This document shows positions 160-23,618 of a stretch of 28,091 nucleotides of DNA, piece after piece. The stretch comes from a virus. Each line of letters starts with the position of its first letter. The stretch's first letter is position 1. The stretch lies in the IMG/VR virus record IMGVR_UViG_3300042350_002942, positions 1 through 28,091 of that record; one strand, written 5' to 3'. The notes below the pieces were generated by a model. The model was given only the letters and a program-made list of their open reading frames with translations, ran no database searches and was not told where the DNA came from. Both the position numbers and the translations under genes were made by a program.

Positions 160-862
160 TTTTATAGTATTCTTCAAACCCATCTAAGTAGTTCGTAATA
201 CTTTTGCTGTTATCTACACCAATAACCTCATCAATTAACCCAAAAGATAAAGCCTCATCTGAAGTATACCATCTATCTCTTGATGAGAAATCTAAAACTT
301 CTTGGAATGTTTTCCCACAATTCTCAGCTAATATCTTAAATAAGATGTAGTTGTATTTCTCACCTTCCATTTGGTCAATACGAGTGTCTTGGATATTTCC
401 TCGTGTTCCGTGACTAACTTGGTGGGTCATTACTTTTGAGTGGATAAGTGACGATCTTTTACCTTTTGTCCCTGATGATAATAGAACAGATCCCATTGAC
501 GCACACATACCCAAGTTTGTTGTAACGATATCTGAACTAACGTAGTTCATTAAGTCCACAATACCAAGTCCACACATAACAGATCCACCAGGACTATTAA
601 TGTAAAGGGTGATGTCTTTCTTTTCAACCGAATCTAAAAACAATAATTGTGCTTGGACGATGTCTGACATATGTTGGTCTACCGGACCTGACAACCAAAG
701 TATTCTATCTCTCATTAATCTTGAGAAGATGTCCATTTGAGTTACTCTCATTTCTCTCTCTTCCAAAATATATGGTGTTAATCCATTCTCAAACTGATCC
801 AACGCCAGTGAACTAATTCCTTCGCTCTTTGCGAAACTTCTAAACTCTTTTCCGTAATCCAT
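137..862 (-). CDS. clpP: ClpP-family serine protease
   Basis: This 241-aa protein is a member of peptidase family S14. The nucleophile is Ser122 in GMCASMGS, the catalytic His is His147 in VMTHQVS, and the Asp is probably Asp196 in SRDRWYTSDEA, which aligns with the ERDRF segment of E. coli ClpP. The oxyanion-region motif INSPGGSV is at 89-95. With about 36 extra N-terminal residues and a ~20-residue tail it is somewhat longer than cellular ClpP (~195-207 aa). The complete triad predicts an active peptidase. Cellular ClpP works as a tetradecamer with an AAA+ unfoldase, whereas in phages ClpP-like enzymes may process virion proteins or retarget host Clp machinery. No clpX or clpA is visible; the AAA+ protein at 26451-27422 is not of the ClpX type. 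It starts 3 nt after the preceding gene's stop. Confidence 0.92.
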   Translation of the reverse strand: MDYGKEFRSFAKSEGISSLALDQFENGLTPYILEEREMRVTQMDIFSRLMRDRILWLSGPVDQHMSDIVQAQLLFLDSVEKKDITLYINSPGGSVMCGLGIVDLMNYVSSDIVTTNLGMCASMGSVLLSSGTKGKRSSLIHSKVMTHQVSHGTRGNIQDTRIDQMEGEKYNYILFKILAENCGKTFQEVLDFSSRDRWYTSDEALSFGLIDEVIGVDNSKSITNYLDGFEEYYKKEVMGVK

Positions 863-865
863 TTA

Positions 866-1102
866 TTATTGATTGTTTTTTATATATTCTAATGTTTCTT
901 CATTTACAAGTTGTTTGAACTTTCTTTGGTTCTCCCAATCAAACATTCTGTAAAATACCATCGCGTTGTCTTGGATATTATTTAACCCATTAACGTAGTT
1001 TAACTTCTCATCCACATACCCATACTCATTATCGTATGTTTCCCATACTTGAGTTGCAGCTTGTTTCATATCATTGAAAATCTCTATACTTGGTGTTTCC
1101 AT
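866..1102 (-). CDS. Small acidic protein of unknown function (78 aa)
   Basis: The ATG at 1102 lies one nucleotide after the TAA of the upstream kinase gene, the spacing that recurs in this genome. A TTG start three codons upstream is possible but less likely. The product (METPSIEIFNDMKQAA...) is soluble, mostly helical and rich in Asn, Asp and Glu, with aromatic residues around QVWETYDNEYGY. There is no signal peptide or membrane segment. I do not recognise the family. Its place between a P-loop kinase and clpP suggests co-expression with both. Confidence 0.7.
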   Translation of the reverse strand: METPSIEIFNDMKQAATQVWETYDNEYGYVDEKLNYVNGLNNIQDNAMVFYRMFDWENQRKFKQLVNEETLEYIKNNQ

Positions 1103-1103
1103 T

Positions 1104-1541
1104 TTAATCAATTACATCAGCCAAATACTGACCCTTTTCTAATTTAACTTTGTATAATGTTTGACCTTTTGGTGCTTCCATCTGATCCATCTCGTCCATC
1201 CAATTATCCCAATTTTTTTCCAATAAGTCAACAAACGCATCGTTATTTCCTCTGTCTTTATATCGTTGGATGTATTCATCTTTGATGTCTCTGTTTGGAT
1301 AAACCAATACAAATGGGATTCCTTTCTTAAGAAGTGCGTCTCTCACATCTTTATGTGATGAAACTAAAATCTTATCCACCTTTGGATCCTGAATGTTTCT
1401 TTCAATGTGTTCAATATAGTTATCAGGAAAATGTTTCTTATCGAACTTTGAACTATCGCTGTCCAACACATTTCTATCTGTAGTGTTGAAGTAGGTCGTC
1501 TTCCCTACACCGGGGAATGCTGAATATACTTTTGTCTTCAT
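1104..1541 (-). CDS. P-loop kinase-like NTPase
   Basis: The 145-aa protein opens with a Walker A motif, FPGVGKTT, at residues 9-16, followed by LDSDSSKF at 27-34, a DxD-like segment often seen in small phage nucleotide or polynucleotide kinases. Later segments (ILVSSHKDVRDAL at 58-70, then an Arg-rich lid-like region IQRYKDRG at 91-98) fit a nucleoside-monophosphate-kinase fold: substrate strand plus mobile Arg lid. A role in nucleotide metabolism is plausible because thymidylate synthase is in the same operon, but the substrate cannot be read from the sequence. The ATG follows the preceding stop by 3 nt. Confidence 0.65.
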   Translation of the reverse strand: MKTKVYSAFPGVGKTTYFNTTDRNVLDSDSSKFDKKHFPDNYIEHIERNIQDPKVDKILVSSHKDVRDALLKKGIPFVLVYPNRDIKDEYIQRYKDRGNNDAFVDLLEKNWDNWMDEMDQMEAPKGQTLYKVKLEKGQYLADVID

Positions 1542-1544
1542 ATT

Positions 1545-1784
1545 TTAATAAATTTTTATTGTTGGGTGTTCTATAATTTCAACGTGTTTCTTACATACTT
1601 GGTAATGTTTATCTAAAACTTCTTTGAGTAACTCTTCTTTTGTTTTACCATTATAATATGCGTAAAAACCACCATATCCCATATCAACCGAGTACCCAAG
1701 ATACTTCCATCTGAACCATCCCTTTCTTTGGATATTATAAGATTCATCACTATTTTTTACAAATCTAATCTTAATTGTTTTCAT
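1545..1784 (-). CDS. Small basic aromatic-rich protein of unknown function (79 aa)
   Basis: I chose the ATG at 1784 (MKTIKIRFVKNSDES) because it follows the upstream TAA by 5 nt; an earlier in-frame ATG at 1826 would overlap the upstream gene by 37 nt. The protein has a beta-rich first half with many aromatics (GWFRWKYLGYSVDMGYGGFYAYY) and a helical second half (KEELLKEVLDKHYQVCKKH). There are no catalytic motifs. The family is not recognised. Confidence 0.65.
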   Translation of the reverse strand: MKTIKIRFVKNSDESYNIQRKGWFRWKYLGYSVDMGYGGFYAYYNGKTKEELLKEVLDKHYQVCKKHVEIIEHPTIKIY

Positions 1785-1789
1785 ATTTT

Positions 1790-2482
1790 TTAAAATTTTC
1801 TTTCCTTCATCATCCTTTTGAGACATTGTTTAATTGTCTCACCTTTTTTAATGTTGTGTCCTGTACCATAAACGCCTCCTTTATATGAAGTAACACCTTT
1901 ACCAATAGGTTTACTGAACTCAACATCAATACTTCGTTTTACTTTTCTAAAAAGTCGTGTCCACTTAAACATTAATGGTCTCCATTCTCTTTCCTCTAAC
2001 TCACAAGTTGCTTCTGTCTCTTGGAACTCATCGTGAATGTAATAGTACTTATGGGTTTCTTTATGAATCTTTTCTTTCCATTCTTCACTATAAAAATCAA
2101 TTTTGTTTTTTTTAGTGTGGTTGGCCCAAGTCCCATCTTTTAGGTATTTGGAGGTTCTTATCCAATCATATTGCCAAGGTAAATCAATACATTTTATTTT
2201 TTTAGTTCCCCTATAAATCCATAATGAATCAGGAAACCAACTACCTACCGAATAAAAATAAAAACCATATGTAGGTGTTTCATCCTTATATTTTGGCGGA
2301 CGGTTTGTTTTAAATTTTAAATAAAACTGACCCCAAATAAAAGAAAAATCCAATTTCCAATCCAAACCATTACTTGGTAGGTATCTTACATTCCACTTAC
2401 GGAACCCGGGATAAAACTCCATCCAATCATTTTTCCAACTAACATCTCTCGTGCCACCATCAACCTTTCTTAACCCTAACAT
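1790..2482 (-). CDS. Aromatic-rich conserved phage-type protein of unknown function (230 aa)
   Basis: This soluble protein is rich in Trp and Tyr (WKNDWMEFYPGFRKW; FSFIWGQFYLKFKTNRPP). Its second half carries acidic-to-basic segments ELEEREWRPLMFKWTRLF (161-178) and ending KGVTSYKGGVYGTGHNIKKGE. There is no signal peptide, membrane helix or obvious active site. The pattern of a WRP motif followed by a Gly-rich segment looks like uncharacterised proteins of large phages, from memory only. Its ATG overlaps the stop of the short gene at 2476-2613 by 7 nt, implying translational coupling. Confidence 0.7.
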   Translation of the reverse strand: MLGLRKVDGGTRDVSWKNDWMEFYPGFRKWNVRYLPSNGLDWKLDFSFIWGQFYLKFKTNRPPKYKDETPTYGFYFYSVGSWFPDSLWIYRGTKKIKCIDLPWQYDWIRTSKYLKDGTWANHTKKNKIDFYSEEWKEKIHKETHKYYYIHDEFQETEATCELEEREWRPLMFKWTRLFRKVKRSIDVEFSKPIGKGVTSYKGGVYGTGHNIKKGETIKQCLKRMMKERKF

Positions 2483-2613
2483 AACTTTTTATATTTTCTG
2501 ATCCCATAACCAATGACTTCATTGTCCATTATTATAGAACATATTTCTACTTTGAATATTTTTCTAAGTGTCGGATTAAACCATCGTTTAAACCAAACAT
2601 TGTGATTTTCCAT
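2476..2613 (-). CDS. Short protein of unknown function between thyA and the 230-aa gene (45 aa)
   Basis: An ATG at 2613, one nucleotide after the thyA stop, opens 45 codons ending in TAG at 2476. The peptide begins MENHNVWFKRWFNPTLRKIF and ends RKYKKLC. It is basic and aromatic with a hydrophobic centre (VEICSIIMDNEVIGYGI). The stop overlaps the next gene's ATG. The exact filling of this gap, with tight junctions on both sides, is the main evidence that it is a real gene. No function is assigned. Confidence 0.7.
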   Translation of the reverse strand: MENHNVWFKRWFNPTLRKIFKVEICSIIMDNEVIGYGIRKYKKLC

Positions 2614-2614
2614 A

Positions 2615-3862
2615 TTAATTTGATAAGGGTGCTTTAATACTTGGGTGTGATTGGTAGTTTTCCACCATAAAATCTGTTGGATTTAGGTGGTGGAATAGTG
2701 AATGATCCTCACTTAAAGATTTGTAGAACTCATACGTTTTCATGTGTTTTAAAAAGGGTAGTGGATATGGTTCTCTTGTTCTATTTGGAATATTATATTT
2801 AATGTAATCCTCATCTGTAATAGCCCGTAATTTACTCATCTGTTGAGTTACTAATTCATATCTTTCATCTTCAGTCAAATCTCTACCAATCTGTTCTTTT
2901 GCTTGTTCGATATGGTTTGAATACAAATGAACATCACCTAAATTACCAACCAATTCATCAGGAACCATATTCACTTCTTTCGCAATTATTTCCAATAACA
3001 AACCATAAGATGCAATGTTGAATGGTAATCCTAAGAATGTATCTACTGAACGTTGATTCCACATTAGAGAGATTGTTCGTTTAGGAATATTTGAATCATT
3101 TAATACAGATTCATCCTCAACAATTAATCTTCCATTCCTATCATAGAAATCTTTCTTATTATCACTTTTATTTACAAGAAGTTTTGTTCTTTCTTCCAAA
3201 CTCAACTCTCTTGTATAAACTTGAAATCCATAATGACAAGGTGGAAGAACCATTTGGTCTAATTCTCCAACATTCCAAGCATTGACCATCAATCGTCTTG
3301 AGTCTGGGTTTGTTTTAAGGTCGTTGATTAGGTTTTGGATTTGGTCATTAACTCTAACATCTTCGTATTTAATAGGTACAAATGTATCCTCATCAAACTC
3401 AACAGCCTTTGTCGAAGTCCAACCTCTCCACTGCTTACCATAAATTGGGCCTAACTCACCCCACTTCTTAGCAAACTCATCATCTGTTTTAATTTTGTTG
3501 ATGAATTCTTCTTGTGTCAATAACTGACCATCTTCATTGATGTAATCTTTTGGTGGATTAGATTTTTTTATAGGAAAACTATTCTTAAAGAACTTATAAG
3601 CGTCACCATCCCAAATATGACAACCGTTATCAACAAGATATTTGATATTTGTATCACCACGAAGGAACCATAATAACTCGGTCACCATAGTTTTCCAAGC
3701 CATTTTCTTGGTTGTAAGTAAAGGAAACCCCTCACTCATTTTATGACGGATCTGTCTACCGAATACTGAAATGGTACCAGTACCAGTACGATCACTTTTA
3801 GTACTCCCATTGTCCAAAATGTCTTGAAGTAACTCTTGGTATTTTATGTCTAAATTATTCAT
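2615..3862 (-). CDS. thyA: Thymidylate synthase with three insertions
   Basis: It methylates dUMP to dTMP using methylene-tetrahydrofolate. Visible landmarks are DRTGTGT (24-30), the LTTKK loop (49-53), the catalytic Cys209 in LPPCHYGFQ, the dUMP-binding SRR (188-190) and NQRSVDTFLGLPFNIASY (269-286), GDVHLYSNH (309-317) and the C-terminal closure HPSIKAPLSN. At 415 aa it is much longer than the usual ~264. Extra material sits at about 93-140 (in the place where L. casei ThyA also has an insert), about 219-262 just after the catalytic loop, and about 327-368. All catalytic residues checked are present, so activity is expected. ATG at 3862 overlaps the upstream gene by 8 nt. Confidence 0.95.
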   Translation of the reverse strand: MNNLDIKYQELLQDILDNGSTKSDRTGTGTISVFGRQIRHKMSEGFPLLTTKKMAWKTMVTELLWFLRGDTNIKYLVDNGCHIWDGDAYKFFKNSFPIKKSNPPKDYINEDGQLLTQEEFINKIKTDDEFAKKWGELGPIYGKQWRGWTSTKAVEFDEDTFVPIKYEDVRVNDQIQNLINDLKTNPDSRRLMVNAWNVGELDQMVLPPCHYGFQVYTRELSLEERTKLLVNKSDNKKDFYDRNGRLIVEDESVLNDSNIPKRTISLMWNQRSVDTFLGLPFNIASYGLLLEIIAKEVNMVPDELVGNLGDVHLYSNHIEQAKEQIGRDLTEDERYELVTQQMSKLRAITDEDYIKYNIPNRTREPYPLPFLKHMKTYEFYKSLSEDHSLFHHLNPTDFMVENYQSHPSIKAPLSN

Positions 3863-4295
3863 CTATGTTCTGTGTTTTTAAGATTTTATTTATTTTATTG
3901 TTGTTTACCTTTGTAGGTAATTTACTCAAATACTTAATGAATTGTTCTCGGTTCATTCTTGGGAATGTCGATTTTGGCCACTCTCCTGAAGTTGAGTCCC
4001 AGTTCTCGTTATCAATGTTTTCCCAAAATAAACTTTGTAAAATATTATCCACAATACTATGTTCATCACTTTCACCCCAATAATCGGTGGTTCCATAATG
4101 AACTTCAGGCATATACACAGGATATCTGTATTTACTGTGTTTTGATCTATACTTCTTTTTATTTGACCAATGATATTCAGCCCAATAAAAATCAGATACC
4201 TTAAAATCTGAAAGTAATCCTTTTCTATACAGAAGACGAACAATTCGCTTCTCCTGTTTAATCCATAATCTTTTTTGTTTTGGGTTTGTTGCCAT
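3855..4295 (-). CDS. Basic, Tyr/Trp-rich protein of unknown function (146 aa)
   Basis: The protein begins MATNPKQKRLWIKQEKRIVRLLYRKG, a basic helix, followed by a Lys/Tyr/His-rich middle (HWSNKKKYRSKHSKYRYPVY) and an acidic aromatic segment (LFWENIDNENWDSTSGEW). It ends in a basic helical stretch. No known motif is seen, though the basic N terminus could bind nucleic acid. It overlaps thyA by 8 nt and is probably translated with it. Confidence 0.65.
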   Translation of the reverse strand: MATNPKQKRLWIKQEKRIVRLLYRKGLLSDFKVSDFYWAEYHWSNKKKYRSKHSKYRYPVYMPEVHYGTTDYWGESDEHSIVDNILQSLFWENIDNENWDSTSGEWPKSTFPRMNREQFIKYLSKLPTKVNNNKINKILKTQNIDE

Positions 4296-4319
4296 AATTT
4301 ATGTATTTCCCTAAATTGA

Positions 4320-4499
4320 TTATCGTTTTTTAACCCTTAATTCTTTAAATCTTTCTTCGTCACCAGGTTTATCGTAACCTTGGGTTAGAACATACTCAAG
4401 TGTTATCAATTCTCGGTATTCTTCATTAGTTAAATTACCTCTCAAATCCTCAACTATCTCATCATAAATCCCCTCAAATGTACTACTTTGTTGTTCCAT
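4320..4499 (-). CDS. Small acidic helical protein of unknown function (59 aa)
   Basis: The first ATG in this frame is at 4499 and overlaps the preceding gene by 17 nt. An upstream TTG at 4559 would force a 77-nt overlap and is rejected. The peptide (MEQQSSTFEGIYDEIVEDL...) is charged and helical, with NLTNEEYRELITLEYVL in the centre and a basic C terminus. No family is recognised. Confidence 0.6.
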   Translation of the reverse strand: MEQQSSTFEGIYDEIVEDLRGNLTNEEYRELITLEYVLTQGYDKPGDEERFKELRVKKR

Positions 4500-4689
4500 C
4501 TTGTTTTTTAATTTTGAAATTAACCACGAACCACAATGCCGCCATTGTTGGTATTCCAACCCACCATATCCACTCTCTATTAGGGTTAACTATACCCATT
4601 AAACTTTGGATAAAGTATGTCATTGCGGGAATCACGAATATTGACATTGTTTGTATGGGACTTGCCGATTTTCTTTTAATTATTTTCAT
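4483..4689 (-). CDS. Small two-helix membrane protein (68 aa)
   Basis: After a basic N terminus (MKIIKRKSASP) there are two hydrophobic stretches, about 12-33 (TMSIFVIPAMTYFIQSLMGIV) and 40-58 (WIWWVGIPTMAALWFVVNF), separated by a short NPNREW turn, and then a basic tail KIKKQDG. This predicts a hairpin inner-membrane protein with both ends cytoplasmic. Such small proteins in phages may act in lysis or membrane remodelling, but nothing here identifies which. The ATG overlaps the preceding gene by 14 nt. Confidence 0.65.
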   Translation of the reverse strand: MKIIKRKSASPIQTMSIFVIPAMTYFIQSLMGIVNPNREWIWWVGIPTMAALWFVVNFKIKKQDGTTK

Positions 4690-4861
4690 TGTCTTCTATT
4701 TTATTTTTACTAATTCTTCTTTTCACAATCCCAACAAGATCTTTTTCAATTTGATCTTCAACACTAATGTCTAAACTATCGTACCATTCTTGGAATCCCT
4801 CGTGTTCGTATAGTTTATCAATCATTTCAATCACCATCTTATAATAGTCAAAATTTTTCAT
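4676..4861 (-). CDS. Small acidic protein of unknown function (61 aa)
   Basis: It begins at an ATG in a TAATG overlap with the preceding stop. The peptide (MKNFDYYKMVIEMIDKLYEHEG...) is predicted helical with an acidic first half and a Lys/Asn-rich tail. No motif was recognised. Confidence 0.65.
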   Translation of the reverse strand: MKNFDYYKMVIEMIDKLYEHEGFQEWYDSLDISVEDQIEKDLVGIVKRRISKNKIEDNENN

Positions 4862-5070
4862 TATATCAAATCTTTTGATTTATTTTTCCATTCCTTCCAA
4901 GTGTTAAAATCTTTAAGGGACTCCATCTGATCTTCCATCCATAACATACCATCAATTATTCCTTGGTAATAACCAACTCTTTTTAACCTACCTTCTTCCC
5001 ACACATCATCACGATAAGCGTTTTCAGTTAATCTTTCAGCAACTTCTTTAATTGTTTCCTTATTTTCCAT
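4861..5070 (-). CDS. Small charged helical protein of unknown function (69 aa)
   Basis: The sequence MENKETIKEVAERLTENAY... includes a Met/Trp/Tyr-rich segment VGYYQGIIDGMLWMEDQMES. It is highly helical and contains no cysteine. The arrangement of a helix-rich start and a DGMLWMEDQM segment resembles small uncharacterised proteins of Bacteroidetes phages, from memory only. The ATG overlaps the upstream stop by 11 nt. Confidence 0.65.
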   Translation of the reverse strand: MENKETIKEVAERLTENAYRDDVWEEGRLKRVGYYQGIIDGMLWMEDQMESLKDFNTWKEWKNKSKDLI

Positions 5071-5377
5071 CTTTAATAATCCCTAATTCTTTTCTAAATT
5101 TTTTAATCTTAATCCTTGTTGCTTGGAATTCATCTCCATCGTTTGCGCTATGACCATTCATAACCGCTTCAGTTATTTTCAATTCGTTATCAAGTATGAA
5201 TGTCATTTTTTCCTGATTTGTTAATTCATACGGAACCACTTCCATTCTAATAAACTCTCGGATCATCGATCTAATTTTATCAATCTGTTCGTCTGGGTTT
5301 TTTTTGGACCCGTGAGACATAACAGATGTTTGGTAGATCGTCCTACTCAATTCCAATATTTTCTTATCAAATCCCAT
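5060..5377 (-). CDS. Helical protein of unknown function (105 aa)
   Basis: The soluble protein MGFDKKILELSRTIYQTSVM... has amphipathic helices throughout (IDKIRSMIREFIRMEVV; KIKKFRKELGIIK) and no signal peptide or catalytic motif. It overlaps the downstream and upstream neighbours by 11 nt each, so it is embedded in the same operon as the tandem repeat proteins and is co-translated with the first of them. Confidence 0.65.
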   Translation of the reverse strand: MGFDKKILELSRTIYQTSVMSHGSKKNPDEQIDKIRSMIREFIRMEVVPYELTNQEKMTFILDNELKITEAVMNGHSANDGDEFQATRIKIKKFRKELGIIKDGK

Positions 5378-6560
5378 CTTTATCCGTATTTCTAATTATA
5401 CCTTCAACTCTACCCATATGATGGTAATGATCTTCAATCACTTCCTTAACATAATCTGTATGTGGTTTTGTCCAATTTTCTTGTCTATGATAGTAATCAC
5501 CATAACCTTTAAGTTCTCCGCTTTTATCAGGTAACTCTTTTATTTCTTTAACCCCATCTTTTACGACTTCATCAACAATACGTTCGGTATTGACCCATTC
5601 CTCCATTGGTTTAGCTACTTTAACGCCATTTTCAATAATGTCATCAACTCCGAGCTTAGTTCGTCGTAATGTACTATAAATTTCCTTTACCCCATTTTGG
5701 GTAGTATCTTCAACCGTTTTAAAGTGGTCAAATTCAACCACTTTGGTGTCTTTCACACCATTTTGAATGGTATTTTCAACCGACCAGTTTATTTCCCAAT
5801 CTATCTGACGGGTGTCTTTAACACCATTTTTAATTGCGTTATCAATATTTTCAGTATTGTCCCATTGTCGTGGACCTATGTGTTTCACCCCATTTTCAAT
5901 GGTATCTTTAACATATTCCTTCGCATTACACACTCGACCGCTGGTTTCTCTCACCCCATTTTGAATTGTGTCTTCAACAATCCTTTCTTGTTTGAACCAA
6001 TTCAGTTTGGTTTCTTTAACTCCATTTTGTATGGTGTCCTCAACACTATCTGTTCTTCCTGATTCCAATATATCGGTGTGTCTCACCCCATTTTGAATGG
6101 TATCTTCAACGACACGTATCATATCTAAGTCGAACGACTCGGTGTGTTTCACCCCATTTTGAATGGTATCTTCAACTAACCTGCCATAACTCCCAAATGC
6201 TTCAAAGGTGTCTTTCACCCCATTTTGAATGGTATCTTCAACTCTTTTTGTTACTCGGTGTTTGTAAGGTGAGGTATGTCCAATAGTTGGTTTATTCAAA
6301 AATCTTAACTCAAACCATTTGGATATTGTTTTGGTTTCATCCGCACATTTTTTTCCAATTAATTCTAATTCTGATTGGAAAGAGTTATAATTAAACCATA
6401 AAGTCCCTGACTCCGTAAATTCGGTTATCCATTTTTTTTCTTCGGTGAATATCAACCAAGTTGACCCTTGTTTTGTTATATACTTGTCAGATCCTTCAAC
6501 CATTTGGTCAAACAACCTAAACATAAGTTTCTCTAATTTATTTCCTGATGGGTTTTTCAT
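5367..6560 (-). CDS. Array protein A: conserved N-terminal domain plus 11 VEDTIQNGVKxT modules
   Basis: The 397-aa protein has an N-terminal domain (about 1-90: NPSGNKLEK..., WLIFTEEKKW, SGTLWFNY, ISKWFELRFL) also present in the next gene, then 11 copies of a 12-aa module (consensus VEDTIQNGVK[HDE]T) starting at Val107, then a His/Tyr-rich tail. The first ten modules are exactly 22 residues (66 nt) apart, each followed by a 10-aa linker with no obvious similarity between linkers. Repeat differences are often at third codon positions, so protein sequence is what is being kept. Each module could form an amphipathic helix ending in an NG turn. I do not recognise a named family; function is unknown. 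Confidence 0.8.
   Translation of the reverse strand: MKNPSGNKLEKLMFRLFDQMVEGSDKYITKQGSTWLIFTEEKKWITEFTESGTLWFNYNSFQSELELIGKKCADETKTISKWFELRFLNKPTIGHTSPYKHRVTKRVEDTIQNGVKDTFEAFGSYGRLVEDTIQNGVKHTESFDLDMIRVVEDTIQNGVRHTDILESGRTDSVEDTIQNGVKETKLNWFKQERIVEDTIQNGVRETSGRVCNAKEYVKDTIENGVKHIGPRQWDNTENIDNAIKNGVKDTRQIDWEINWSVENTIQNGVKDTKVVEFDHFKTVEDTTQNGVKEIYSTLRRTKLGVDDIIENGVKVAKPMEEWVNTERIVDEVVKDGVKEIKELPDKSGELKGYGDYYHRQENWTKPHTDYVKEVIEDHYHHMGRVEGIIRNTDKDGI
5541..6242 (-). repeat. Coding repeat array A, 11 units, 36-nt repeat with mostly 30-nt spacers
   Basis: Repeat units begin (on the coding strand) at 6242, 6176, 6110, 6044, 5978, 5912, 5846, 5780, 5714 and 5648, a strict 66-nt period; the last starts at 5576 after a 36-nt spacer. 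Many units contain the small dyad CCATT-CAA-AATGG. The geometry is close to that of Bacteroidetes CRISPR arrays, but the array is one open reading frame and repeats diverge mainly as a coding sequence would. Confidence 0.85.
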
Positions 6561-6563
6561 CTT

Positions 6564-7826
6564 CTATATTTTTTCACCATTTTCAATAATATCCTCAACC
6601 GTAGTATCACCATAATAACCAAGATCAAAAGCAAAATCAACGTACTTCACCCCATTTTCAATAATATCCTCAACACTATTATCGCCACAATTATAAGCAA
6701 AACAGACGGACTTCACTCCATTTTGGATAATGTCGTTAATGCACTCAAGTTCTATCCCCAAAGGTCTATCTGAAGTTTTTTTCACCCCATTTTCAATGGT
6801 ATCTTCAACTTCCTTACGACGATGGTATCTGTTGGTTGTGGTCTCCTTCACCCCATTTTGAATTACCCTTTTACTATTAACCTTAAATATTTCACTTACT
6901 AAACTAAGTTCACTTACTTCTTTCACTTCTTTAACACCATTTTTAATGGCGTCTTCAACACGATACGATGGATCTAAACGCTTTAATGATGTGTGCTTTA
7001 CCCCATTTTGAATGGTGTCTTCAACTTGTAATTTGTTTTCACCAAAAGCACGTTGGGTGTCTTTCACCCCATTTTTAATGGTGTCTTTAACCAGTCCGAT
7101 ATCACGGTTCCAATCAATTTCTTGCGTATGTATAACTCCATTTTGAACCGCATCTTCAACGAATGCCGGATGTCGTAGAGTACCTTTAGTTTGTTTCACA
7201 CCATTTTGAATGGTATCTTCAACCAACAAAAGGACATCTTGATCGTGTTGTATGGTGTGTTTCACCCCATTTTGAATAGTGTCTTCAATTATTGTGTTGA
7301 CCTTTTTGAAAGAAAAATGGGTGTGTTTCACCCCATTTTGAATGGTATCTTCAACTGTTCTCGTATAGTGATAATTTCTTCCGGTGTTCTTCACCCCATT
7401 TTTAATGGCGTCTTCAACACGATACGATGGGTCTAATAGGTTTAAAGAAAAATGGGTGTGTTTCACCCAATTTTGAATAGTGTCTTCAACACCTTCCCAT
7501 TGACCACGATTTGGATAAAAGGTGTGTTTTACCCCATCCTGGATGGTTTTTTCAACCTTAGGTTTAAGGAATCTTGTTTCAAACCACTTTTGGATAAGGT
7601 CTTTGTTTGTAACACAATCTAAACCAACAAGTTCCATTTCATTCTTAAAGAATTGGTAGTTATACCACAGAGTTTGTGTGTCCGTGTATTCAACAACCCA
7701 CTTCATATCATTGGTAAAGATTAACCATAAACTTTTGTTATGGTTATATATATCGGCGTTTTCGATAGATTTATCGAAGATCTCGAATAAAATTTTTTCT
7801 AATTTATTTCCTGTTGGGTTAATCAT
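6564..7826 (-). CDS. Array protein B: paralogue of array protein A with 15 modules
   Basis: The 420-aa protein shares its N-terminal domain with array protein A (NPTGNKLEK, LWLIFTNDMKW, TQTLWYNY, IQKWFETRFL within 1-90) and carries 15 VEDTIQNGVKHT-type modules from Val91 to the C terminus, without the tail seen in A. Linkers are 9-13 aa, except a longer one before the incomplete eleventh unit (NSKRVIQNGVKET). Variant modules such as VEDAIKNGVK occur twice with the same linker end LDPSYR, pointing to internal duplication. It starts 21 nt after the lipoprotein gene and ends 3 nt before gene A. Tandem paralogy and shared architecture are seen directly; the role is not known. Confidence 0.8.
   Translation of the reverse strand: MINPTGNKLEKILFEIFDKSIENADIYNHNKSLWLIFTNDMKWVVEYTDTQTLWYNYQFFKNEMELVGLDCVTNKDLIQKWFETRFLKPKVEKTIQDGVKHTFYPNRGQWEGVEDTIQNWVKHTHFSLNLLDPSYRVEDAIKNGVKNTGRNYHYTRTVEDTIQNGVKHTHFSFKKVNTIIEDTIQNGVKHTIQHDQDVLLLVEDTIQNGVKQTKGTLRHPAFVEDAVQNGVIHTQEIDWNRDIGLVKDTIKNGVKDTQRAFGENKLQVEDTIQNGVKHTSLKRLDPSYRVEDAIKNGVKEVKEVSELSLVSEIFKVNSKRVIQNGVKETTTNRYHRRKEVEDTIENGVKKTSDRPLGIELECINDIIQNGVKSVCFAYNCGDNSVEDIIENGVKYVDFAFDLGYYGDTTVEDIIENGEKI
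6567..7556 (-). repeat. Coding repeat array B, 15 units with variable linkers
   Basis: The units are 36 nt each (one shortened), with spacers of about 27-39 nt and one longer. Two pairs of identical blocks are present: 6937-6971 equals 7396-7430 (35 nt, repeat end plus linker start), and 7309-7333 equals 7444-7468 (25 nt). These identities cross the repeat/linker boundary, indicating recent intragenic duplication or gene conversion. Confidence 0.8.
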
Positions 7827-7847
7827 TTTAATATTCTTCTATAGGTT

Positions 7848-8279
7848 TCATAAACTTATTGGTAATAATTTTTCGGGTAGATATTTCTCAGGACATACAA
7901 TAACGAATGAGGTAACTAAATACCACTCACTACCAAGTAATTGGTTTGTACTACGATTATAATAATCTCGATAAGTTATATAAAGGTATGGTTTATTAAT
8001 TGTGTTATCAATTTTAATTCTCGCATCTTTAAAATCAAACTCAATAAGACGATAGAACCCATTCACTTTACCCATCAATTTAATTTTAGTGGTAACTTCC
8101 TCACTATAAGACGCCGATCCCATCACTAAAAAATAACTAGCGGAACCCTCTTTCGTTACCTCATCCGTTTTAACTAATTGTCGTAAATAGATATTTTCCG
8201 TTCTACCTCTTTTTTTGACAGGCATATCACAAGAAAACAATCCAAATACCATTAAGGTAATAAATAATAAATTTTTCAT
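7848..8279 (-). CDS. Putative lipoprotein (143 aa)
   Basis: The ATG at 8279 follows the upstream TAA by one nucleotide and places a lipoprotein signal at the very N terminus: MKNLLFITLMVFGLFSC, with lipidated Cys17. In-frame starts further upstream would bury it. The mature part is basic at first (DMPVKKRGRTENI) and then beta-rich (KIKLMGKVNGFYRLIEFDF, PYLYITYRDYYNR), suggesting a small periplasm-facing or surface beta domain. It is the first of two adjacent lipoprotein genes. No family was recognised. Confidence 0.75.
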   Translation of the reverse strand: MKNLLFITLMVFGLFSCDMPVKKRGRTENIYLRQLVKTDEVTKEGSASYFLVMGSASYSEEVTTKIKLMGKVNGFYRLIEFDFKDARIKIDNTINKPYLYITYRDYYNRSTNQLLGSEWYLVTSFVIVCPEKYLPEKLLPISL

Positions 8280-8280
8280 A

Positions 8281-8568
8281 TTAATATTCTTCTTTTTCAT
8301 TAACCTCAATTACCCTTTGTTTGTTTCGTTCCAAACAATATTTACAATTCCCTTTGTGTGTTAATGCCGGTTCACGATTATCCATTCCATTAACTAAAAT
8401 GTATTCACACCCATCAATTTCTTGAATGTGGTACACATCCATATCGGTATATTCAAACTCAAGACCACCAATATCTTCCACCTCAGTTGTTTTTTCGACG
8501 GTTACTTCAATTTCTCTTTCACAAGACACCAATAGGAATAATCCCATTAAAAATACTAACTTTCTCAT
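8281..8568 (-). CDS. Putative lipoprotein with a HKGNCKYC motif (95 aa)
   Basis: ATG at 8568 lies one nucleotide after the preceding TAA. The signal MRKLVFLMGLFLLVSC ends in a lipobox with Cys16. The mature part is acidic (EREIEVTVEKTTEVEDIGG) and contains DGCEYILVNG and LTHKGNCKYCLERN, giving three further cysteines, one pair as CxxC. These could form disulfides in the periplasm or bind a metal. Small proteins with an HKGNC segment occur in Bacteroidetes phages, from memory only. Membrane-anchored placement is well supported; function is not. Confidence 0.75.
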   Translation of the reverse strand: MRKLVFLMGLFLLVSCEREIEVTVEKTTEVEDIGGLEFEYTDMDVYHIQEIDGCEYILVNGMDNREPALTHKGNCKYCLERNKQRVIEVNEKEEY

Positions 8569-8569
8569 T

Positions 8570-8887
8570 TTAATAACCCTCTCCTGTTTCATTTATAAAT
8601 TCAATACCATTTTCATTTGCAAACTCTGATACCAGTTGTTCAACAACATCTTTATCCATACGACCGTAGTCAACCGAATAACCGTAAACTCTAATACCAA
8701 GATCAGACCATCTAACTCTACCACCACCACGAATTCTCCATTCCTTTAGTTCTGGATCAATTCCTCTGAATCTATTTGCAACATCTTCGTGGAACTCTCC
8801 TGGCCCTGAACGAAATACAAACTCACCGTCTTTTTCCAAGATTACGCATTTGCGAACCGCATCTTTTTCTATAATAACTTTTTCCAT
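8570..8887 (-). CDS. Phosphohistidine phosphatase-like protein (PHPT1/Janus family)
   Basis: The 105-aa protein matches the Janus/Ocnus/PHPT1 fold in order. It has a first strand region KCVILEKDGEFVF, a FHEDVANRF segment carrying His33 (equivalent to catalytic His53 in the YHADIYD of human PHPT1), a GGGR motif at 54-57, IRVYGYSVDYG at 65-75 (human: IHVYGYSMAYG) and a final acidic tail ending GEGY (human: NDGY). The human enzyme removes phosphate from protein histidine or lysine. The match to the catalytic and binding motifs makes an active phosphatase plausible. It heads a long operon and has its own TATATTTG promoter box. The partner substrate in infection is unknown. Confidence 0.75.
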   Translation of the reverse strand: MEKVIIEKDAVRKCVILEKDGEFVFRSGPGEFHEDVANRFRGIDPELKEWRIRGGGRVRWSDLGIRVYGYSVDYGRMDKDVVEQLVSEFANENGIEFINETGEGY

Positions 8888-8891
8888 AATA

Positions 8892-8923
8892 CAAATATAT
8901 TAATAAATTTAAAATCAGACAAC
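8892..8923 (-). promoter_or_regulatory. Bacteroidetes-type promoter for the PHPT-like gene
   Basis: The transcribed strand has TTG, 20 nt, then TATATTTG (8899-8892), matching the Bacteroidetes TTG-N19/20-TAnnTTTG consensus. The ATG begins only 4 nt after the box, so a transcript would have little or no 5' leader. Confidence 0.6.
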
Positions 8924-8934
8924 CGGTATTTATT

Positions 8935-9300
8935 CTAATTCTTTCGTTCAAAGTAAAAAACCACAGGATTTTGTTTGACTTCAATAAGTCCGTAATCACG
9001 AGCTAATCTGAAATTAGGAGTATCTCTCTCCATTCTATCGATAGAGTTTTCGACTATGGTTCTAAACATCTCTAAACTGAATGTTGATTTCCATTTATTA
9101 CAACGAGAACAGGATGGATTTAAATTGTCCATCTCATCTGTTCCTCGTTCAACACCCCAAGCCTCAAGTGTCTCAACTTTATCATTACGATATAATGGTT
9201 TTATGTGATCCACTTGCATCTGTTTGAATGTTATTTCAATTCCACAATAAGCGCAATGACCTGAACACTTATCATAAACTTCTTGTCTGTTGATTTTCAT
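8935..9300 (-). CDS. HNH endonuclease
   Basis: The 121-aa protein has the standard layout: zinc pair CAYCG (Cys16, Cys19), core VDHIKPL (31-37), and NLNPSCSRCNKWK with the second zinc pair. The His, Asn and Lys/His positions of the HNH fold are intact. The C-terminal half is basic and helical. It is the last gene of its operon and immediately follows a GIY-YIG nuclease. A freestanding homing endonuclease is the likely role, but a phage DNA-processing nuclease is possible. Confidence 0.85.
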   Translation of the reverse strand: MKINRQEVYDKCSGHCAYCGIEITFKQMQVDHIKPLYRNDKVETLEAWGVERGTDEMDNLNPSCSRCNKWKSTFSLEMFRTIVENSIDRMERDTPNFRLARDYGLIEVKQNPVVFYFERKN

Positions 9301-19977: not shown

Positions 19978-20973
19978 TTAGTTTCTTATAACTTTTTCAG
20001 TTGATCCGTCACTATATCGGATGATATGTAATTCACCTGATTCAGGTTTACATTCTCTACCTAACATATCTGTGATTTTAACGATTGTCTTCCCATATTG
20101 AGTTAACTCTTCAATTTCTGCAAATCCTATACTCTCAGTTTGATTGATAACAATAGTTTTATAATCCATTGATTTAGTATAACAATACACAACTAATTGG
20201 AAGTTATAACATCCTGTTGAGTCGATCATTGGGTAGTTCACCATATATGTTTGGTATGTACCTGTTGTATCAATAACATACCACACACATAAAATACTGT
20301 CTAAACCACTATTAATAAGACCATTTATTGTCATATATGCTGTGTCGATTGTGTTAAAATTTATATTACAATCTTCTATGGTTGTGGTGAAATTACCAAT
20401 TGGACTATTACAAGTACCTGTTGAATTTAACACTAAAGTATCTCCGAAATTGGTTGATTGTGTTACGATTGAATCACATAATGTTGTATTACATCCGTTA
20501 GCATCCATTACATAACAACAATACCCCCCTACAGATAAATTATTGATCGTCTGAAGCATATTACCATTACTCCACTGATATGTGTATGGTGCCGTTCCGT
20601 TAATAACATTTGCTGTCATTGATCCATCATTAATTGTAGAATCAATTGTTGTGATATATCCACCGAAGTTAAAACACGGATTGAATGTACCTGATGTTAT
20701 GTTGAACGTAAGTGTTGTTGGGGTATTATTAACAACGAATGAAACTGTGTAAGTTCCAGGACAAAGACTATCAACATAGTATCCTCCTGATTGGATCACC
20801 GCGCCAAATCCATTCCAATTAATCACCGATAAGTTAACACTCGTATCTAATACTGCAGTACCATCACAGATGTTAGGACCACTAGTAGGTGAGGTATAAA
20901 CCATTGTTTGGGACATTACCCCAAAAGAAATAACACTAATAAGTGTCAGTAATAATAATTTTAATTTTTTCAT
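19978..20973 (-). CDS. Secreted SprB-repeat protein with T9SS-like C terminus
   Basis: The 331-aa protein has a signal peptide (MKKLKLLLLTLISVISFGVMSQ) and a Gly/Thr/Asn-rich body. Residues about 105-165 contain a SprB-type repeat: DGSMTANVINGTAPYTYQWS, then LSVGGYCCYVMDANGCN (consensus GGTPPYTYxWSxG ... GTYxVTVTDANGC). The C terminus GKTIVKITDMLGRECKPESG, HIIRYSDGSTEKVIRN looks like a short type A T9SS sorting domain. In Flavobacteriia, T9SS substrates with SprB repeats are cell-surface adhesins or secreted proteins. A secreted or surface role is well supported; a phage-tail or receptor-binding role is less likely because of the signal peptide. Eight cysteines suggest disulfides. Confidence 0.72.
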   Translation of the reverse strand: MKKLKLLLLTLISVISFGVMSQTMVYTSPTSGPNICDGTAVLDTSVNLSVINWNGFGAVIQSGGYYVDSLCPGTYTVSFVVNNTPTTLTFNITSGTFNPCFNFGGYITTIDSTINDGSMTANVINGTAPYTYQWSNGNMLQTINNLSVGGYCCYVMDANGCNTTLCDSIVTQSTNFGDTLVLNSTGTCNSPIGNFTTTIEDCNINFNTIDTAYMTINGLINSGLDSILCVWYVIDTTGTYQTYMVNYPMIDSTGCYNFQLVVYCYTKSMDYKTIVINQTESIGFAEIEELTQYGKTIVKITDMLGRECKPESGELHIIRYSDGSTEKVIRN

Positions 20974-20999
20974 AAATTTGTTTTTTAGTTAACTATAAA

Positions 21000-21007
21000 C
21001 AAATATA
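21000..21007 (-). promoter_or_regulatory. Promoter -7 box for the SprB-repeat gene
   Basis: TATATTTG matches TAnnTTTG and lies 26 nt before the ATG, giving a normal short leader, in contrast to the 4-nt spacing elsewhere. It follows the TonB gene's terminator. Confidence 0.55.
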
Positions 21008-21021
21008 AATAATATATCAAT

Positions 21022-21045
21022 AAAAAACCCTCCTTTTGGGAGGGT
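21022..21045 (-). terminator. Rho-independent terminator after the TonB receptor gene
   Basis: Stem ACCCTCC/GGAGGGT with a 5-nt loop and a following T6 run, 7 nt after the stop codon of the receptor gene. Confidence 0.88.
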
Positions 21046-21051
21046 AACTAA

Positions 21052-23613
21052 TTAAAACTTATATTTAACCGATAGTGAAACCGTTTGACCAAAAGTAATC
21101 TCTTGCCACCTATTATCTTCTGTGTCATATCTATGATTACCATTTAGGTCTTGGAAATATATAAGTTTTTGTGCTAATATATCTTTTAAGTTTAATTTTA
21201 ATTCAACCTTTTTAAATGTTTTTGACAATTGGAAATCGATCACATTTCTTCCGTTTTCCCAAACGCTAGGTTCCTGTTGATTACCAACAATATAGATTCT
21301 AGGTCCGATAACATTATAGGATAATGTAACATTAAAATCTTCTTTTTTGTTCGTGTAAAATAACCCTGAATTAATGATGTATGGTGATTGTCCTTGTAGT
21401 GGTCTGTTACCACCAGCACCTATAACCTCATCCATATTTACCACTGACTTAATAATTGAAATATTACTATAGATTGTAAGTTGGTTCCATAATTTATGGT
21501 TTTCAACTTTAGATAAAAACCCTAATTTAAATCTGAATTCTAACTCACCACCAAAACTTTGTGATCTTTCAATGTTTGAGAAGTATAACTCAGGTGCTCC
21601 TGACGTTCCGGTCCTATTTATAGTTTCAATAGGGTTATTAAAGTTTTTGTAAAACCCTGACAAACTTATAATCTGACCACTACCAGGGTAAATCTCATAT
21701 CTAATATCACAATTAGTTATCTTAGTTCTTTTTAAATATGGATTACCTGATGTGATATTATCCAATACGAAGTTATAGAAGTTAAATGGCGCTAATTCTC
21801 TAAACTCAGGTCTAGATACCGTTTGACTAATACTTCCTCTTAACTTCATTTTTTTATTGAAGTTATAAATTACATTAACAGAAGGTAATAAATCAATTAC
21901 CGTTGTGTCAATGTTTCTATTTAAGTTACTCCCAAACTCAATGTAGTTAAAGTTTTGATTGTAAGATTCTAATCTAACTCCACCCGCAAATCTCCACTTG
22001 TTCAATTTGTAATCAACCATAGTGTAGAAAGAATTTAAGAATGAATTTGCATCATAACTATCATCAACTTTGGTTGCCTCATCTAATTTAAAACCACCCT
22101 GACCATTACTTAAAAGACCCATATTCTCAGTGGAGAATATTTGATCCATAGGTAATAAAAGTAAGTCACTATTAAAGGTACTACCGTTTGGTTTATATTG
22201 TGAAAACCCAAAATTTCTTGATTGAAAGTCTTTCATTCTAAATTGATTCCACCCACCGATCTTGACTGAATTAACATCTTTAAATGGAATTGTTAGATCA
22301 TATCTTGCACTTATAATTTTTTCATCTGATTCAGACCAAAACATATTACCAGCAGCAGTTGGTATTGTACCGTTCTGTTGAATAACTGCAACATATTGTT
22401 CTGTTGGGTCATCCTCATTTAAAGAGTATTTTCTATACACTACTCTCCTTAGGTTCGGAATGTCTCTTTTAACATTACTATAACCAACACTCCAATTAAA
22501 TTTATTTTCTTTTATCGTGTGAATCCCAAGTAATTGATTAGTTAAAAAGTTATTTTGAGTATACCAAAAATTCGTAGATTTCTCCCATTGTCTTGGATCA
22601 CTATCTAACTCTCTAACACCCTTTCTAACATTAACCTTATCTTCAGAATTTACAGAATAAATATTCTTAAACTTGATGGTGTTGTTTTCATTAATCTTAT
22701 AAACCAAATTTAACATACCACTATTTAAAACACTCTGAGTAAATACAGAATCATTTAGTTCCATTTTCTTAACCACACCCGTTGCTTGTTCCTCAAACTC
22801 TCTTCTAACAATATTATTATAGTTGAAGTTGTTTTGGTAGTTATACGTTAAAATGAAACTTAACGTTTGTTTCTTTTTAAATTTAATGTTTCTACTTAAG
22901 GTATATTGAATAGATGGGTTAGGTAACGCGAGCCTATCTTTAGTTGACCAAGTAAAGTCCATTAGTTTTGCAACCTCAGACCTTTCTTGTTTTGATAAGT
23001 TTTGGAAATCAATAGTTCCATTAATATTTGGTAACCCTCTAGATTCAACACTATATGTTTTAAAATCCCTAAATGTTGCAATTGTATTATGTGATCCACC
23101 AATCTGTATTGTATGAGTATTCTCATTTTTAGGTTCGGAAGTGTTAATATCAATTACGCCTCCAGCAAACTCACCAGGTAAATCAGGACTAGCAGTCTTC
23201 ATCACCATTAGATTGTCAATCATATTTGATGGGAATATATCAAACGAAAAAGATCGCTTATCGGATTCCGAACTTGGTAAAGGTAGCCCGTTCAATAATG
23301 CGAAGTTGTATCTATCATTAAGACCCCTCACAACCACGAACTTATTATCCACAACACTTATCCCACTAACACGTTTAAAAACATCAGAGACCTTAGAGTC
23401 TGGTGTTCTCTTAAAGGTCTCTGCGTTAATTCCGTCTACAGATGTAATACTATTTCTTTGTAGTTTTACAAGTTCTGTTGTTGATTCTTTATTAATTTTA
23501 AAGGTAACCGTAACCCCCTCAACATTTCTAATTGTATCTTTTTTAAATGTCTCAGATGGTTGAGCCAATAATTGTATTGGTAGTACCAATAATAACGTCA
23601 ATAAAAATTTCAT
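21052..23613 (-). CDS. TonB-dependent outer-membrane receptor
   Basis: The 853-aa protein begins with a signal peptide (MKFLLTLLLVLPIQLLAQ). A plug domain at about 45-160 reads SVDGINAETFKRTPDSKVSDVFKRVSGI, then VVVRGLNDRYNFALLNGLPLPS, FDIFPSNMIDNL and SPDLPGEFAGGVIDI. The long beta-barrel follows and ends in KYKF, with the C-terminal Phe typical of outer-membrane proteins. It lacks the N-terminal carboxypeptidase-like domain common in Bacteroidetes SusC-type receptors. The substrate is unknown. It follows the T9SS-sorted beta-helix gene by 5 nt in one operon, an arrangement typical of host chromosomes, so horizontal acquisition from the host is likely. The frame is intact over its whole length. 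Confidence 0.93.
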   Translation of the reverse strand: MKFLLTLLLVLPIQLLAQPSETFKKDTIRNVEGVTVTFKINKESTTELVKLQRNSITSVDGINAETFKRTPDSKVSDVFKRVSGISVVDNKFVVVRGLNDRYNFALLNGLPLPSSESDKRSFSFDIFPSNMIDNLMVMKTASPDLPGEFAGGVIDINTSEPKNENTHTIQIGGSHNTIATFRDFKTYSVESRGLPNINGTIDFQNLSKQERSEVAKLMDFTWSTKDRLALPNPSIQYTLSRNIKFKKKQTLSFILTYNYQNNFNYNNIVRREFEEQATGVVKKMELNDSVFTQSVLNSGMLNLVYKINENNTIKFKNIYSVNSEDKVNVRKGVRELDSDPRQWEKSTNFWYTQNNFLTNQLLGIHTIKENKFNWSVGYSNVKRDIPNLRRVVYRKYSLNEDDPTEQYVAVIQQNGTIPTAAGNMFWSESDEKIISARYDLTIPFKDVNSVKIGGWNQFRMKDFQSRNFGFSQYKPNGSTFNSDLLLLPMDQIFSTENMGLLSNGQGGFKLDEATKVDDSYDANSFLNSFYTMVDYKLNKWRFAGGVRLESYNQNFNYIEFGSNLNRNIDTTVIDLLPSVNVIYNFNKKMKLRGSISQTVSRPEFRELAPFNFYNFVLDNITSGNPYLKRTKITNCDIRYEIYPGSGQIISLSGFYKNFNNPIETINRTGTSGAPELYFSNIERSQSFGGELEFRFKLGFLSKVENHKLWNQLTIYSNISIIKSVVNMDEVIGAGGNRPLQGQSPYIINSGLFYTNKKEDFNVTLSYNVIGPRIYIVGNQQEPSVWENGRNVIDFQLSKTFKKVELKLNLKDILAQKLIYFQDLNGNHRYDTEDNRWQEITFGQTVSLSVKYKF

Positions 23614-23618
23614 TCCTA

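Follow-up and report, generated by a model that had tools for sequence, protein, structure and literature searches.

The genes termed A and B of a phage consist largely of short repeats with the dimensions of a CRISPR array, and this raises the question of whether the locus is a CRISPR array or a protein-coding gene, and of how a gene of this type may have originated. The window, i.e. the whole stretch of DNA that was analyzed, is a virus record of 28,091 bases. Its features that are relevant here are as follows.

5367..6560, minus strand: gene A, 397 aa, with an N-terminal domain, an array of 22-aa units and a conserved C-terminal end
6285..6560, minus strand: N-terminal domain of A (residues 1–92), with a predicted structure
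5541..6242, minus strand: array of A, eleven 36-nt (12-aa) modules and ten linkers
6207..6242, plus strand: first module of A in its opposite-strand reading, which is the orientation of the type VI-B direct repeat
6564..7826, minus strand: gene B, 420 aa, a tandem paralogue of A
7557..7826, minus strand: N-terminal domain of B
6564..7556, minus strand: array of B, fifteen modules
5060..5377, minus strand: conserved partner gene, 105 aa, directly downstream of A

The module consensus peptide is VEDTIQNGVKxT. Modules 1–5 of A are at 6207–6242, 6141–6176, 6075–6110, 6009–6044 and 5943–5978, and modules 6–10 are at 5877–5912, 5811–5846, 5745–5780, 5679–5714 and 5613–5648. The coordinates confirm the first-pass annotation, which had described ten 12-aa modules, each with a linker, at exact 66-nt intervals; all nine steps between them are exactly 66 nt. 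Module eleven (5541–5576) follows after a 72-nt step, and a possible further module, which is very degenerate, is at 5373–5408 (13 mismatches allowed). No two of the ten A linkers look related on inspection. The fifteen modules of B are spaced by 63, 66, 69, 72, 75 or 84 nt, every one of which is divisible by 3, and two of the B linkers have the ending LDPSYR in common. The N-terminal domains of A and B (N-domains) are each about 90 aa long and are 51% identical. Tandem Repeats Finder reports only 2.6 copies in A (6073–6243), thus a standard tool overlooks most of the array.

Nine terminator-like sites are found within positions 4300–9300, where 2.3 are expected, and all of them are within the A and B arrays (5541–7556). 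Seven of the nine are on the plus strand, and these might end antisense transcription.

Reading frame, predicted structure and distribution

The array of A was described in the first-pass annotation as open in one frame throughout. This holds for A, whose frame is open over 397 aa, and for the phage arrays in general: each of the 683 module spacings that do not exceed 150 nt is divisible by 3, and 533 of them equal 66 nt (75 loci, which hold the 79 non-redundant arrays). By comparison, 586 of 748 distinct units are multiples of 3 in the type VI-B-like arrays of bacteria described below (702 of 917 spacings with overlapping loci included); there the mode is also 66 nt (577 of 748), and units of 65 nt (81) and 67 nt (58) are common. 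The A/B array is coding DNA.

An AlphaFold2 model of residues 1–200 of A, based on a 54-sequence alignment, displays a folded N-domain and repeats without secondary structure. The pLDDT is about 96 over residues 11–80 and about 28 over residues 93–200. The predicted N-domain fold consists of a helix, four strands and two helices, and the repeat tail is predicted to be disordered to residue 200. The alternative named at the outset was an ordered repeat protein, such as a solenoid, with the linkers as ordinary surface loops. The strict 22-aa period is in keeping with such a protein, as is a weak Dodecin match of B (E-value 3.4e-5; 24.5 bits, cut-off 22.5), which was taken as a matter of composition. 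The low pLDDT and the predicted lack of secondary structure over residues 93–200 argue against it, as does the exchange of linkers one by one (see below), and a solenoid is considered very improbable.

No credible match of A, B or the N-domain was found among Pfam, PHROGs and PDB sequences. With A as the tblastn query, 19 phage records were retrieved at 20%–27% identity, nearly all of them with a tape-measure annotation; this assignment was rejected because the N-domain alone matches nothing there. Foldseek comparison of the N-domain with the PDB gave nothing at an E-value of 0.001 or better, and comparison with BFVD gave two matches at 0.001 or below and a few weaker ones, all uncharacterized Caudovirales proteins. 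The best Z score from VIA-align is 3.7. Despite the lack of a confident match, it is possible that the N-domain has a known fold.

The family is widespread in viral DNA. A 27-nt degenerate module pattern matches at least 119 IMG/VR stretches, a number that includes some repeated viruses or contigs and shows that the array is no product of chance, and an N-domain profile detects 147 relatives among IMG/VR viral contigs, of which 80 were kept. Among cellular genomes of 84,980 species, 75 stretches match a pattern and none was confirmed as carrying the N-domain family. Contigs bearing the family are up to 308 kb in length. N-domain matches, one or two in each, are present in all 16 phage records searched, one match being weak, and the median N-domain identity is 46% (22 representatives less than 70% identical). 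In three contigs (L004–L006) the A and B proteins are identical to those of the window, thus these evidently represent one virus.

The partner gene (5060..5377) overlaps the end of A by 11 nt. Its cluster is found within 4 kb of arrays at 87 loci, with a median distance of 5 nt, and a profile search detects the gene at 82 loci. The partner protein is predicted to have four helices, and comparison with PDB structures gave nothing at an E-value of 0.001. At positions 8570–8887 of the window is a product that matches the Janus/Ocnus family (E-value = 2.3e-6), relatives of which are within 4 kb of arrays at 35 loci.

Three proteins are encoded at positions 19978–25181 of the window: an SprB-repeat protein, a TonB-dependent receptor and one with a sorting tail for type IX secretion. 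Eight related phage records contain nothing that matches the TonB-dependent receptor, which points to host cargo or a chimeric contig. On the basis of the SprB, TonB-receptor and Por-sorting domains in the window, together with the repeat likeness described below, the hosts of the array-gene phages are probably Bacteroidota.

Linkers as exchangeable cassettes

In 108 arrays, 618 of the 909 inter-module intervals are exactly 10 aa in length. The linkers were counted in the 79 non-redundant arrays among these, where some N-domains are cut by contig ends. A copy that is at least 90% identical in DNA sequence is found in another array for 155 of the 513 distinct linkers. There are 288 linker pairs of this identity between different arrays, and 96 of them join arrays whose N-domains are less than 60% identical; this bears out the earlier proposal that linkers are exchanged between phages. 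Where the N-domains are less than 60% identical, a flanking linker is also shared in only 2 of 132 comparisons, thus it is single units that recur across distant lineages. Where the N-domains are at least 90% identical, the flanking linker is shared in 70 of 170 comparisons. Linkers are exchangeable cassettes.

The first-pass annotation had weighed diversification against the presence of identical linkers at identical positions in relatives. The latter is found in the three contigs of the same virus and in part in close relatives; between diverged arrays, linkers move singly. The contigs with identical A and B proteins display no diversification of linkers on a short time scale. A comparison of substitution rates had also been proposed, and for shared linkers pN/pS is 0.33–0.38 over 160–372 pairs, the pairs being selected by DNA identity and not independent of each other. 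The value of about 0.35 indicates that shared linkers are maintained as peptides.

The DNA of the modules is unusual in its codons, and codon choice is far from that of the linkers and N-domains of the same genes. In 738 modules Val-1 is encoded by GTT at a frequency of 0.97 (0.49 in linkers), Thr-4 by ACC at 0.84 (0.26 in linkers) and Asn-7 by AAT at 0.98 (0.69 in linkers). Some of these loci had been retrieved by way of the module DNA itself; in 159 modules of 19 arrays represented by protein-retrieved loci, the base frequencies are similar and in part lower. In arrays of at least six units, module DNA departs further from the consensus toward the C-terminal end, with an identity of 0.877 in the N-proximal fifth and 0.743 in the final one, as if new units were gained at the N-terminal end and older ones were drifting. 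The sameness of the modules is most simply explained by recent exchange.

Flanking modules of 36 nt have a length that can be used by phage annealing recombinases. RecA family searches of 16 phage records gave hits in 7, all of them weak and below the cut-off. On balance it seems likely that recombination uses the near-identical 36-nt modules as homology arms, which would make each linker a cassette.

The origin of the linkers was also considered. The new spacers of the VI-B and II-C systems of F. columnare are 28–32 bp, mostly 30 bp, in length (PMC8092290); 66-nt units would thus arise naturally. Comparison of the linkers with 1,015 spacers, a small data set, gave nothing beyond chance, the ten best matches being 13–18 nt in length, and the suggestion that the linker DNA is of spacer origin finds no support there. 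The best matches of spacers to the phage loci likewise include nothing longer than 18 nt, and linkers have no match beyond chance to protospacer sequence (again a small data set). The linker LFDFIKGRVF (L123, unit 7) aligns in frame with leuC (L217:591–617) over 27 nt at 92.6% identity. This was discounted because its E-value of 7e-5 is for one of 617 queries, or about 0.04 overall.

At the peptide level, linkers show no excess of matches to flanking viral open reading frames over two shuffles, with one exception. The linker AGTYNVTLTD reaches a score of 46, above all shuffles, against the viral open reading frame segment SGTYNVTVTDANG, a motif which we take to be that of SprB-like surface repeats of Bacteroidota. 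Against bacterial open reading frames there is a slight excess at score 34 (31 matches versus 18 and 23 in shuffles), which is gone at 38 and above.

Likeness of the module to type VI-B repeats

A two-copy pattern, built from the module together with type VI-B repeats and therefore partly circular, matches 114 stretches in the genome collection. Among the 80 stretches listed, nearly all are from Bacteroidota, the exceptions being Thalassospira and one Chlorobiota genome. From the 114 loci, 83 distinct repeats were retained (at least 3 copies, conservation of at least 0.85). Six of eight large open reading frames tested beside pattern-found arrays are Cas13b by NF038190. The Cas13b profile search, with the search-centre genomes counted, detected 3 of 395 Bacteroidota genomes, and 9 of 246 and 6 of 299 genomes in two families. 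Rfam gave nothing credible in the phage arrays; two loci with type VI-B arrays (L357 and L353) also gave no CRISPR match, so that the Rfam result carries no weight.

Type VI-B repeats were derived from the flanks of Cas13b genes without reference to the module; of 19 rows eleven repeats were used, and duplicates, 12–18-nt partials and two non-CRISPR rows were left out. The resulting repeat-blind set consists of seven repeats from Cas13b-profile genomes only, which are related to each other and some of which are partial. For all seven, the best alignment to the module is antisense and in a single common register, with local scores of 9–14. Thirteen repeats from 20 Cas9 regions have scores of 5–8 (mean 6.5) in scattered registers.

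The likeness is highest in the last 21 nt of the plus-strand reading of the first A module (6207–6242). The null set consists of 2,317,616 phage windows outside of the array genes, some of them from overlapping loci. Over the first 21 nt of the module, a part that was chosen after its likeness had been seen, the GAT form of the consensus has 103 matches of 139 summed over the repeats, a sum reached by none of the phage windows and none of 20,000 shuffles; the GAC form has a sum of 98, reached by two windows and no shuffles. At all positions, the seven repeats match the module at 131 of 213, and the summed match over all 36 nt is reached by one window (GAT) or seven windows (GAC). At the 24 positions that are outside of the search pattern, the module is at the 5th–7th percentile of VI-B-like repeats (p = 0.003–0.007).

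Most of the likeness is located at sites that determine the amino acid. Synonymous recodings of the module reach the 21-nt sum in 126 of 3,000 cases (GAT) or 333 of 3,000 (GAC), thus codon choice contributes little to the likeness. The best local score is reached by 494 of 3,000 recodings, in a comparison with eleven repeats of which four (L352, L353, L357 and L361) are from pattern-found genomes. The third positions of codons 2 and 3 show no lean toward the type VI-B repeat, and codon 3 is opposite to it.

The type VI-B repeat of F. columnare, which is from a pattern-found genome, matches the module in antisense at 19 of 21 nt, where 12 of the 21 positions were preset by the search pattern, and at 24 of 36 nt over the full length. 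The best match of 24 of 36 is reached by 13 phage windows; here windows near module-like motifs were masked, and the repeats were two pattern-found ones and that of L350, which had been completed with the consensus of the pattern-found L261. In duplex prediction with the F. columnare repeat, N-proximal modules have −23.3 kcal/mol, synonymous recodings −16.9 (sd 4.4) and C-proximal modules −14.9. With the II-C repeat, the predicted duplexes of modules are no different from those of recodings.

The hairpin of the type VI-B repeat is not preserved in the module, which is predicted to form two short separate hairpins and not a single long one. Folding was compared for five modules, counted from the first, in each of 24 arrays (the first 24 of the 79); these modules are more stable than synonymous recodings, with a mean z of −1.47 for the mRNA strand and −2.35 for the opposite strand. 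Pair covariation in the modules is not convincing; control pairs of the second hairpin are equally strong.

The sequence comparisons make it quite probable that the module is related by descent to type VI-B repeats, a grading that allows for the two strands, the registers, the chosen 21 nt and the many repeat families. The first-pass annotation had noted CRISPR likeness as a matter of geometry. The geometry is that of type VI-B arrays, but the claim is understated since the module sequence itself is VI-B-like in antisense. Its parallel with both II-C and VI-B arrays extends to sequence for VI-B and does not for II-C.

The likeness may instead be a coincidence, in which case the genes would encode ordinary phage proteins with disordered repeats that recombination homogenizes and shuffles. 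Exchange alone accounts for the sameness of module DNA, synonymous sites lean toward VI-B at only p of about 0.04–0.16 with one consensus, and type VI-B was singled out for comparison, so that the true number of comparisons is greater than one. Coincidence is nevertheless rather unlikely in view of the null set, where none or two of 2.3 million windows (depending on the consensus variant) equal the module, the single register in which the ends of the module match the ends of the repeat, the identical 36 + 30 geometry, and the specificity for VI-B over II-C.

A role of the array at the RNA level is a further explanation, i.e. counter-defence in which anti-repeats in the mRNA soak up type VI-B crRNA or its precursor and the protein is secondary. 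The mRNA strand of the array is the complement of the VI-B repeat, N-proximal modules are predicted to pair more strongly than recodings with the F. columnare repeat (see above), the module codons are far from usual usage, and RNA anti-CRISPRs that mimic repeats are known (PMC10651486). Those RNAs mimic repeats, however, and the word "antisense" is absent from the text of that paper. The strict frame and the protein-level constraint on shared linkers also argue against an RNA sponge, as do the partial complementarity (24 of 36 with F. columnare) and the departure of codon 3 from VI-B. This explanation appears improbable.

Possible origin and comparison with known systems

Degenerate VI-B-like arrays (36 + 30 nt) are present in Parapedobacter and Sphingobacterium, with several clusters close together (L207, L224, L226, L238, L242, L265, L272, L276, L287, L306 and L313). 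Searches of five genomes of these genera with VI-B-like arrays gave no Cas13b hit in any of the five. The repeat of Parapedobacter soli (L224) matches the module at 29 of 36 positions, and an antisense frame of its array reads VAHTFQNGVTHT. The VI-B-like two-repeat pattern is also found in 16 viral stretches (L368–L383), two of them from one contig. The antisense reading of the L372 repeat is VVYTIQNIGINS, and the L379 repeat matches the module at 28 of 36. The P. soli and L379 repeats are the closest found, and both start with GGTGT as does the phage module. Most of the viral VI-B-like arrays are not open in one frame throughout. From their sequences, it is plausible that such bacterial and viral arrays are precursors of the coding array.

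Several large open reading frames are associated with VI-B-like arrays. In L369, the stretch that holds the array also has a stop-to-stop frame of 1,144 residues in which two RxxxxH motifs occur. Beside the arrays of L219 and L294 are open reading frames of 1,237 aa (1324–5034, two RxxxxH motifs) and 1,091 aa (857–4129, one RxxxxH motif); both are NF038190-negative and possibly encode divergent effectors. Three stretches from Thalassospira, an alphaproteobacterium, have VI-B-like arrays of the repeat ATTGTAGCAGGTTCGATTTTGGATGGTAGCTACAAC (L249, L251 and L260).

The phage array could also function as a CRISPR array: it would be transcribed from the opposite strand, a host Cas13b would use it, and the linkers would serve as spacers. 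This is in agreement with the orientation of the repeat, with the geometry, and with the viral occurrence of the two-repeat pattern. Against it are the strict frame, the peptide-level selection on shared linkers, the lack of spacer or protospacer matches and a repeat fold that is not kept; promoter-like sites on both strands are not in excess in the region 4300–9300 (16 found, 21.6 expected). A working array is therefore most unlikely. A search for Cas13b was negative for the window and for 15 related phage records (0 of 16; the records may be fragments).

The explanation that we favor, and consider somewhat more probable than its negation, is that A and B are frame-kept arrays of type VI-B descent, with a folded head and a disordered tail of cassettes that are swapped by way of the modules. 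The starting point would be a type VI-B CRISPR array, or a phage-borne array without cas genes, that came to be read antisense and in frame. A 36-nt repeat and a 30-nt spacer together make 22 codons, so that a read-through CRISPR array would yield such a repeat protein. The near-identical 36-nt modules would then recombine, and linkers would be swapped singly between phages. The N-domain would present the tail, whose short linear motifs or decoys would form a combinatorial set. That the tail peptides are motifs or decoys for host or rival-phage proteins is a tentative suggestion; if they are, the tail would probably serve counter-defence or host takeover. It is also conceivable, if doubtful, that phages captured a type VI-B array, fused it in antisense to a small domain and now put it to dual use, where the mRNA supplies anti-repeats against Cas13b crRNA and the protein supplies a traded peptide repertoire. 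Peptide cassettes would in that case be traded singly, much like the gain and loss of spacers.

The module peptide was not found in the text of open-access papers, and searches of that literature, judged by titles and the openings of abstracts, showed no account of the A/B family, of a protein array derived from CRISPR or of a repeat-based counter to type VI-B. If the proposed history is correct, the locus may represent a possible counter-defence against an RNA-targeting CRISPR type for which the Racr survey (PMC10651486) lists no repeat units. It would also represent a route to new genes in which a CRISPR array is turned into a protein domain, and a phage peptide repertoire that spreads cassette by cassette across distant lineages. 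There is a hint here that an array of bacterial immune memory was possibly turned into a shuffling viral protein. CRISPR finders may miscount such coding genes as arrays.

In recombining repeat proteins, repeats provide the homology for shuffling. The phage array differs from these in general by its single cassettes, usually of 10 aa, that are found across distant phages, and by its CRISPR-like repeat. VIPR (PMC13142463) is a phage tandem-repeat RNA system, and it has GGY/NN repeats, unlike the phage array. Racrs and solitary repeat units are, like the phage array, phage-borne look-alikes of CRISPR repeats. However, Racrs are small non-coding solitary RNAs, whereas the phage array is coding, has many units and is antisense to the repeat; the Racr survey lists repeat units for all types except type VI (PMC10651486). 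Type II-C arrays have a repeat sequence unlike the phage module (scores of 5–8, versus 9–14 for VI-B). The VI-B-like arrays of Parapedobacter and Sphingobacterium and of viruses have spacings that are free of the multiples-of-3 rule, unlike the phage array. Type VI-B arrays of Bacteroidota differ in that the phage array holds strictly to one frame and is translated as part of a protein with an N-terminal domain, its shared linkers are kept as peptides, the repeat hairpin is not kept and no cas13b was found in the 16 records. The two have in common a 36-nt repeat, a 30-nt unique unit and a modal period of 66 nt, with the repeat in one common register and orientation.
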